Assembly: GCA_949317995.1 (NCBI GenBank)
Contig: OX439049.1
Span: 9,401,395-9,465,394, forward strand
DNA length: 64,000 nt
Direction: 5' to 3'
Source of the DNA: Acholoe squamosa
Taxonomy: Eukaryota; Annelida; Polychaeta; Phyllodocida; Polynoidae
Of this stretch, positions 58,613-61,254 are shown piece by piece. The number at the start of each line of letters is the position of its first letter. Position 1 is the first letter of the stretch. The position numbers were made by a program, and so were the translations under genes. The notes below the pieces were generated by a model. It saw only the letters and a list, made by a program, of their open reading frames with translations. It searched no databases and was not told the origin of the DNA.

Positions 58613-59115
58613 GTTTCCTACCTTCCACCTACGCCTGGATCGGTATGATACACAAGGGGGCAGCTTACACCAGCTAACCACCCCCTGGGGGCTGGTGCAG
58701 CCGGAACAGGGCAGATGGCCTACCGCCATGGACTTACAGCCAGCCTTAAATTCAGAACCATACATGTATAGTGCATTACAAGCCTATTTATAAACACTGT
58801 GCTCAGAAGCTTCACCATGGGTGTGGCCATCAATGATAATGATAAAACAAGTTTCAAAAAATTATTCCTGTGGAAGCCTGTTTCTGTGCTTTAACTTTGT
58901 AGGGCTTGATATGCACAGTCTGCTGTGATCCTCCTCGCCCCGTTCTGTCTGGGTAACCTTTGAAGTTCTTTTTACACTGTACAAAATAACTCTTGAAACA
59001 ACCAGGGATCCTTGTAAAACTGAACAGTGGACCACCATAATTATATTGCAGGTAAGCAGTGTGGTTTCTACAATGAAGCCCGAGAAGACAGTACAGTAGT
59101 ACAGGGAATCTCCAT

Positions 59116-61156
59116 GCAGGATACCGATGACAGCGGTTTAGCTAGTCCTCAGGGCTAAAGCGCCTGCCGCATCCGCGCTGACCTAAATACGCAGACTCTA
59201 CACGGAGCCTCCTGCGGTGAGCATAGGTGCGTGGGTGTAGTGGTAGTCCTCAGGACTATAGCTAATAATCCTTAGTCCTGGGGACTAGATGATAGTTTAG
59301 CCCACAACTAAACTATAACGGTCAAGTCCTGGGGATAAAAGCCTAGTCCTAAGGACTAAAGCCTAGTCCCCAGGACTAAGAATATGAGGATATTGTCCTA
59401 GGGACTAATTGTACATTCCCATGAATAACCTTGCAGACCCCATGACTTTGTGTAAGACTGTGCTGTTAGTCTCCAGGACTAAGTTTTTAGCCCTGGGGAC
59501 TAATTCGTAGACTTAGGGACTACTTGTTCAATCCTGAGGACTACAAAAACACCTGCCTAGTCCTCAGGACTAATGCATGCGGTTCTGAGGACTAATTCAT
59601 TGATTGATGTCTAATGTAGTTGTGACTAGGGATGTAGTCCCCAGGACTTCAAATTTAGTCCTGAAGACTACTTCTAAGTCCCCAGGACTGCTCTGTGCAG
59701 TCCCAGGGACTAAAGATACAGTCCTGGGGACTAGAACATTGTCCTTGGGACTAGAGACACAGTCCTTGGGACCAATGCCCTAGGCCCCAGGGGTGCCTGT
59801 CAACATGTTTGTACAGTCAAATAGTTATAGCCCTGGGCGCAAAAAAGCAGCCATTGTTCCATAGTCCCTGGGATAGAACATTAGGCCTGAGAACTGTATA
59901 GTGGTCCTCAGGACTAGTCAGTCCAGGACTAGACCATTATATCTGTAGTCCCCAAGACTAGAGAAACAGTCATGGTCCCCTGGGGACTAGATTCATAGTC
60001 CCAGGGCTACCTCTGTTTGGTCCTGAGGACTAAATATATACTTACCTAGTCCTCAGAACTAAAGTAAAGTCCCCAGGACTATTATCTGTAGTCCCTAGGA
60101 CTTTCAGTGTATTTTTTCAGCCTGTAATGATAGTCCTGGGGATTAATAAACAGTCGTCAGGACTAAGTTTTTAGTCCCAGGGACTATCTCTTTCTAGCAC
60201 CGAGGGCTGTCCCGCGCACCCATGTGGTCGTAAAAATAAAACATAGGGCCTTAGTCCCAAAGATTGTATCTTAGTCCCAAGGATTATGTTCTAGTCCCTA
60301 GAACTATATGTTTAGTCCCTGGGACTAGACAGACAGGCTTTGAAGCTACAAGTCAAGTCCTGGGGACTAAAAAGTAGCTCCAGGTACTAAAATTCTAGTC
60401 CCCAGGACCAAATCTTGACTCCCTGTGAGCATGCATCTAGTCCCTAGCAGTTTCAGCATTGTTACTTGCATTCAAAGCCTATACTATAGTCCCTGGAACT
60501 ACACAGTAGTCCCAAGGACTAAAGATACAGTCCTAGGGACTAGATTATAGTCCTTGGGACTGAGACCCTGGCTCCTACCCATCTTATCACATATGTGTGC
60601 AGTCAAATGGGTATAGTCCTTACCGTAATCTCCCGCGTAAAAGGCGTGTCTTATACGCCAAACAAAATGCTGCTGAGTCTTATACGTGGGAGGGACATTG
60701 CCTTGAGTTTGGGGTGCGCCTTATAGGGGGGGTATTTTTACTATAGAACAGTACTAAATTAACAAAAATCTGGCCTTAGGGGTGCACCTTATACGTGGGA
60801 CAGGCCTCCCTTAGTTGGGGGTGCGCCTTATACGCGGGCTGCGCCTTATACGAGGGAGATTACGGTAGTGTGAAAAACAGCCAGCGTTTCATATTAATAA
60901 ATCATCCAAGAGTAGAGAATAGTCATGGTGCCCTGGGGATGAGATTCATAGTCCCAGGGACCACCTGTTTAGTCCTGAGGACTAAAATGTATAACTAAAC
61001 TGTACTTACCTAGTAAGCAGGTGTTCTAGTCCCCAGGACTAGATGTCGACGCATGGCTGCTGGCCGCTGCAGCGTAAGCGGCAAACAGGGCCAGCGCGGA
61101 CGCGGCAGACGCCTTAGTTCCAGGGACTAGTTAAACCGCTGTCATCGGTATCCTGC
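59116..61156. mobile_element. 2.04-kb element with inverted ends and an internal array of small palindromes
   Basis: The left end GCAGGATACCGATGACAGCG is mirrored exactly at 61137-61156. The inverted similarity continues inward for about 65 bp (gcctgccgcatccgcgctg against gcgtctgccgcgtccgcgctg). A 9-bp target duplication, aatctccat, flanks it (59107-59115 and 61157-61165). The interior carries more than 40 copies, by eye, of a 12-16-bp palindrome such as tagtcctcaggacta or tagtccccaggacta, separated by irregular unique spacers. No open frame of note. A 9-bp duplication with such ends would fit Mutator-like elements; that is tentative. Confidence 0.8.
60621..60867. mobile_element. MITE nested in the palindrome-array element
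   Basis: TACCGTAATCTCCCGCGTA at the left is closely mirrored by tacgagggagattacggta at the right. The interior repeats gtgcgccttata and its complement. TA at both borders may be the target. A fragment of the same family (ggtgcgccttatagg, gtgtgccttatactt) is at 22266-22305. Confidence 0.7.
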
Positions 61157-61254
61157 AATCTCCATGGAAATGGATCTCTGACAACTTTGGGACAAGGATG
61201 AACAGCGAATACCCCTAAATAAACATAATCAGTGTACAGTATCATCATGTTTAA

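Follow-up and report, generated by a model that had tools for sequence, protein, structure and literature searches.

MULEs make target duplications of 8-11 bp and carry long TIRs, often of 100 bp or more, and in the foldback elements FB and the sea-urchin TU the TIRs are modular and partly built of repeats. Merlin elements have an 8-9-bp duplication and GG ends, and Helitrons and Helentrons have neither a target duplication nor a TIR.

In Muta1, a MULE of Aedes aegypti, target duplications are 8-9 bp long and the 145-bp TIR holds nine copies of a 12-bp subterminal repeat with 3-4-bp spacers; its terminal motif is an imperfect palindrome, it is classed as a type 2 foldback element, and more than 300 putative non-autonomous derivatives have variable repeat numbers (PMC5225508). 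Rehavkus elements are relatives of MULEs with a 9-bp target duplication and a minisatellite before the 3' TIR, and the tabulated hosts are Arthropoda and Annelida only (PMC6446971). The foldback element Tetris has modular TIRs of up to 1,735 bp that consist partly of repeats, 8-10-bp duplications and no reported transposase-bearing copy (PMC4079207). The subterminal repeats of CACTA elements are multiple short sites for the element-encoded DNA-binding protein TNPA, which is required for transposition (PMC2613891), and MULEs with tandem TIRs are plant elements according to the abstract of their description (PMC3310237).

Here we describe a transposon at positions 59116-61156 of a 64,000-nucleotide stretch of the annelid Acholoe squamosa (contig OX439049.1, 9,401,395-9,465,394; hereafter the window). 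The first-pass annotation could name no family built like this. The element is close to MULE and foldback elements with subterminal repeat arrays such as Muta1 (PMC5225508), although its array is unusually extensive. The 12-bp repeats of Muta1 are described as tandem and lie within the TIRs (nine per TIR), whereas here 15-bp palindromes occur at 17-66 sites through the body; no autonomous copy is known in the Acholoe squamosa family. The Acholoe squamosa elements resemble the Muta1 design taken to an extreme, with repeats that are palindromes and occupy the whole interior.

The element and its copies

The element is a real, multi-copy, gene-less (non-autonomous) TIR transposon. Its precise inverted ends and 9-bp target duplication, as first annotated, are confirmed. 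The tips are perfectly complementary over 25 bp (GCAGGATACCGATGACAGCGGTTTA at 59116-59140, with its exact complement at 61132-61156), they stand within wider arms of 69 nt that are 86% complementary (59115-59183 against 61089-61157), and the two copies of the target duplication AATCTCCAT are perfect. The features are as follows.

59107-59115, no strand: left 9-bp target duplication AATCTCCAT
59116-59183, forward strand: left TIR, the first 25 bp a perfect complement of the right end and the 69-nt arm 86% complementary, first palindrome at 59143-59157
59143-61129, no strand: array of palindromic sites TAGTCC-YNR-GGACTA (15 bp), 40 sites at two or fewer arm mismatches and 47 at three or fewer, main step 20-22 bp, non-coding
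60621-60867, no strand: nested younger TIR element with its own TA duplication; L071, L072 and L073 lack it here
61089-61156, reverse strand: right TIR
61157-61165, no strand: right 9-bp target duplication

The longest open reading frame that overlaps the element, in a list of those of at least 60 aa, has 67 aa, and the longest stop-to-stop frame at most 76 aa. When the flanks are joined across the element they align with dispersed repeats in the window and in L079 (five alignments, each close to continuous save for small gaps of a few bases by the junction), and the transposon was therefore inserted into an older repeat. This host repeat lies at 58976-59116 of the window and has relatives near 1382, 20003, 35909, 38234 and 63011. 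The tip GCAGGATACC (59116-59125) resembles the half-site AGGACTA minus one base.

Inside the transposon is a second TIR element of 243 bp (60623-60865), with ends CCGTAATCTCCC and GGGAGATTACGG and a TA duplication. It is younger than its host transposon, and the corresponding place in L071-L073 is without it. The nested element contains repeated GCGCCTTATACG.

The 20-bp tip has 954 matches (483 + 471) with up to two mismatches in the 1.48-Gb genome, compared with none for a reversed control, so the other copies anticipated in the first-pass annotation do exist and its view that the unit is mobile and carries a non-coding array of palindromes is supported. Among 100 exact tips listed there are at least 33 tip pairs, with lengths of 1,124-5,383 bp. 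For a second tip variant, GACGGCGGTCTAG, there are 353 exact matches, and the 100 of them listed include at least 31 pairs of 758-4,008 bp. Places that match the tip without the first palindrome number only 13, by a pattern that is not fully sensitive, and some of these are mere shifted versions.

For comparison we used 42 elements, namely that of the window and those of 41 of 46 stretches (L039-L084) with both ends in the right order; in L074, L075, L076, L079 and L081 the second end was not found in the stretch, and these were excluded. A stretch was picked either because it has an exact tip or because it is similar to the window element, and the sample is thus not random. The 42 elements are mosaics of common modules, 0.7-5.4 kb long. 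Pieces of positions 1-1066 of the window element recur in most of the set at ~86-97% identity, in both orientations and often fragmented.

The 9-bp duplication, whose length is within the MULE range, is perfect in 26 of the 38 elements compared, with one mismatch in four, two in four and three to five in another four. As to TIR length, the window element has 69 nt at 86%, and in some copies, such as L049, the two ends are nearly identical over the 150 nt compared. In L048, L061, L064 and L068 the tip is duplicated, a second copy lying 109 bp inside the first, which is like the tandem-TIR MULEs of plants; the abstract describing the latter makes no mention of palindrome arrays (PMC3310237).

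Foldback elements have long inverted arms made of tandem repeats; in the present set, L067 has the same module in both orientations and the window element has its 69-nt arm pair. Perfect terminal identity in the present family is short (25 bp, decaying over ~70-150 bp), and the array is palindromic and not confined to the arms. Like Rehavkus, the family has a 9-bp duplication; a minisatellite of ~81 bp, which recalls that of Rehavkus, stands near one end in some elements only, whereas the ~21-bp array fills the body. The ~81-bp minisatellite was seen at L067 3621-3947, L089 3394-4031 and L084 382-581, and similar sequence occurs in L062 and L069.

Two other groups can be set apart. Helitrons and Helentrons are excluded by the TIR and the 9-bp duplication. 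CACTA/EnSpm elements are excluded because the ends are GCAGG with a 9-bp duplication, as against CACTA ends and 3-bp duplications. Beside the GG ends of Merlin, those of the present family start with GC. In a literature search outside Repbase no family with this layout was recognised beyond Muta1/MULE, Rehavkus, foldback and CACTA elements, and such searches do not expose motifs; the motif and tip strings matched only papers unrelated by title.

The palindromic motif and its spacing

With 0, up to 1, up to 2 and up to 3 arm mismatches, the window element has 10, 35, 40 and 47 TAGTCC-NNN-GGACTA sites. The means in 100 dinucleotide shuffles are 0.01, 0.03, 0.2 and 1.63 sites, and the rest of the window (61,959 bp) has 0, 0, 0 and 9. 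The figure of over forty palindromes given at first is reached only with the loosest setting. Across the 42 elements there are 1,604 sites with up to two arm mismatches (17-66 per element), and their consensus is TAGTCC-Y-N-R-GGACTA. More than 98% of these filtered sites have Y at position 7 and R at position 9, and any of the four bases occurs at position 8.

The right half was also checked without a filter, by anchoring on an exact TAGTCC only; once copies were merged, 218 contexts remained. Of these, 92% have Y at position 7 and 93% have R at position 9. Information content is 0.54-0.95 bits per position in the right arm, 0.05 at position 8 and at most ~0.2 in each of the next ten bases. 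In 134 of the 218 contexts the right arm has no mismatch or one, and the 39 contexts with at least four mismatches look like lone halves or decayed units.

The exact motif TAGTCCTCAGGACTA occurs 3,180 times genome-wide, compared with two occurrences for the reversed control. Binding of a host transcription factor or chromatin protein, leading to germ-line expression or a preferred chromatin state, is an unlikely reading of these sites. The two-fold symmetric Y-N-R centre and the half-sites are typical of a dimeric factor, and the CC-YNR-GG core may recall AP-2-type sites. On C1, however, the exact motif is nearly always tightly clustered, and several occurrences abut either tip variant (among 100 places listed), which is, weakly, not like a dispersed host site.

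The array is quasi-regular, with a main step of 20-22 bp, or about two helical turns. Site-to-site steps in the 42 elements peak at 20 (314 steps), 21 (405) and 22 bp (102), with a second peak at 29 bp (135). After removal of near-identical copies, 73 of 223 steps of up to 120 bp (about a third) are 19-22 bp, and there are smaller peaks at 29 and 41-42 bp, of which 29 misfits a two-turn rule. The spacing, called uneven in the first-pass annotation, is thus not simply irregular.

The array looks like an old, strongly diverged minisatellite of ~21-bp palindromic units in which the half-sites were kept, so the earlier statement that it is not an ordinary tandem satellite was half right. This likeness raises the alternative of a passive minisatellite, in which slippage or unequal exchange multiplied a palindromic unit of 21 bp within a non-autonomous element without any function and arm conservation is only apparent, due to young expansions or conversion between similar units. 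We regard this alternative as rather doubtful. Tandem Repeats Finder agrees with it in that L067, L084 and L089 each show periods both of 20-21 bp and of 42 bp, and the window shows periods of 20-21 bp (68-90% matches); in the window element these are short 20-21-bp arrays with 79-90% matches. Similarly, 36 of 186 distinct indels of at least 8 bp are 19-23 bp long, and in L066 neighbouring units clearly share more spacer bases than distant units do (1.73 vs 1.19 identical of 5). L066 is however the only one of six elements with a clear difference of this kind, neighbours being less alike in two and scoring 1.67 vs 1.48 in the window element. The spacers and the central base are near random between units, yet both arms persist together with the Y/R restriction, and passive drift would not spare both arms.

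Pairing, half-sites and selection

The first-pass annotation had suggested that pairing or a dimeric binding site matters, or that short inverted units are added by a templated process. Covariation was analysed in 592 distinct sites with up to three arm mismatches, a filter that selects against double changes at each of the six arm pairs and leaves the central pair unaffected. Complementary double changes at the central pair 7-9 number 69 against 75.6 expected, those at pair 1-15 number 6 against 11.4, and six of the seven pairs fall below expectation; the exception is pair 4-12, with 3 against 2.2. In a second comparison, a site was admitted if one copy had no more than one mismatch, and the homologous 15-mer of the other copy was read unfiltered (462 distinct 15-mer pairs). 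Over the seven pairs this comparison gave 610 one-sided and 36 two-sided changes, of which 15 were complementary (10 at the central pair).

Positions 7 and 9 therefore vary independently. Self-complementarity had been said to be kept while the central bases vary; position 8 is free, and positions 7 and 9 are restricted to Y and R and do not covary. Since there is no covariation and the outer centre bases are independent, pairing is disfavoured and two TAGTCCY half-sites for a dimeric protein are favoured. From the sequence comparisons, two half-sites read separately by two protein subunits would explain the data better than a hairpin, and the appearance of the palindromes is that of places where a paired DNA-binding protein docks rather than of self-folding DNA. 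Of the possibilities first named, it is the dimeric binding site that is favoured, the motif TAGTCC-Y-N-R-GGACTA having halves that vary independently.

A hairpin or cruciform, with the palindromes kept for base pairing or made by a templated process, seems highly improbable to us. Many units do have perfectly self-complementary arms, and the excess at pair 4-12 points the same way. Against this stand the deficits at the other six pairs (the central one free of the filter's bias) and the scarcity of complementary changes beside one-sided ones when the second copy is unfiltered. Nor do gains and losses give much support to templated addition: indels between relatives are 8 to 72 bp long, and among the 40 commonest shown only 5 contain a palindrome or make one complete.

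Divergence between copies bears on selection and on the passive minisatellite alike. Pairs of at least 96% identity differ equally in arms and spacers (1.7 vs 1.7%), so that no selection after insertion is seen in them, as a passive history would have it. In older pairs arms differ less than spacers, at 2.6 vs 3.5% (93-96% identity), 2.9 vs 4.5% (89-93%) and 3.4 vs 6.4% (84-89%), the pairs not being independent. The two lowest identity bins give 6.7 vs 15.8% and 16.5 vs 31.3%, a gap that may partly be mis-registered alignment, because position 8 there differs in at least 30% (30% in the 76-84% bin).

Shared/private substitutions in the commonest (window-like) module, counted in a comparison that drew on L001-L038 as well, number 22/93 in arms and 66/179 in spacers plus other positions, and 20/91 and 45/146 without CpG-type positions. 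The direction is that expected under selection, and the difference is not significant (p = 0.12), which also agrees with a passive minisatellite. Selection on source elements is likely.

Transposase source and possible role of the array

The search for a transposase-bearing relative with the same ends, proposed with the first-pass annotation, found none among the copies read. No stop-to-stop frame in the 42 paired elements reaches 100 codons (the longest has 96), and no transposase was recognised in L079-L084, in the odd tip interiors L085-L089 or in L090, the interior of an 8.9-kb tip pair, by a frame scan that could miss spliced genes. Beyond the copies read, the genome has two further tip pairs, at C11:65538062-65544649 (6.6 kb) and C17:43019802-43024430 (4.6 kb). 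One L079 open reading frame, the single frame sent to Pfam, matched no family. The PHD-finger transposase of Rehavkus was not found in the copies read.

Large frames by the copies were judged by eye to be retroelements. In L081 there is a pair of LINE-like frames, and L083 has a frame that resembles reverse transcriptase and stands outside the element; the frame of L089 is RNase-H-like and that of L090 integrase-like. The LINE-like frames (L081 1754-5576) and the integrase-like frame (L090 260-1210) are within or beside copies.

The MULE domain PF10551 has 36 matches in the genome; of the 16 comparable with tips listed, none is nearer than 186 kb to an exact tip, and the eight on C1-C4 are no nearer than 604 kb to the second-variant tips listed. 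PF00872 has no match in the genome. The Merlin-type domain PF12762 has 46 matches, and of the 13 comparable none is nearer than 95 kb to the tips listed. As part of the tips was compared, the distance of MULE and Merlin domains is a weak negative. A MULE or Rehavkus source is favoured mainly by the 9-bp target duplication, which suggests a Mutator-like or Rehavkus-like transposase.

We give an even chance to the following reading: the family is a non-autonomous cut-and-paste TIR family, most likely moved by a MULE/Rehavkus-type transposase in trans, and its body consists of operator-like sites in an array to which a dimeric protein would bind. Each site would be a pair of half-sites 5'-TAGTCCY-3' in inverted orientation, their centres separated by 8 bp, and would recur about every two helical turns. 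A hypothetical dimeric DNA-binding protein from an autonomous relative (the DNA-binding domain of the transposase, or an accessory protein) would load along the array and help to bring the two TIRs together, so that array-rich copies would gain a transposition advantage. For this, the sites for TNPA in CACTA elements offer a functional analogy (PMC2613891). The array may have grown by duplication of ~21- and 42-bp units and shuffling of larger modules, with spacers drifting and half-sites kept.

More tentatively, and with less confidence than in that reading, this may be a transposon lineage that has lost all coding and whose whole body has turned into an array under selection, in phase with the helix, where a dimeric protein would find dozens of sites. 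Such an element would be a parasite competing for transposase by the number of its sites, and the array would be the unit of selection.

The family is unusual and well copied, and the function of its array makes a good testable hypothesis. If the array consists of sites for a transposase or accessory protein, the 42 elements would form a natural dose series of 17 to 66 sites per element. This series would let one ask how the number of sites in cis controls the transposition of non-autonomous elements and how these outcompete their source. It would also mean that a minisatellite of phased palindromes can spread through a eukaryotic genome as ready-made operator arrays.
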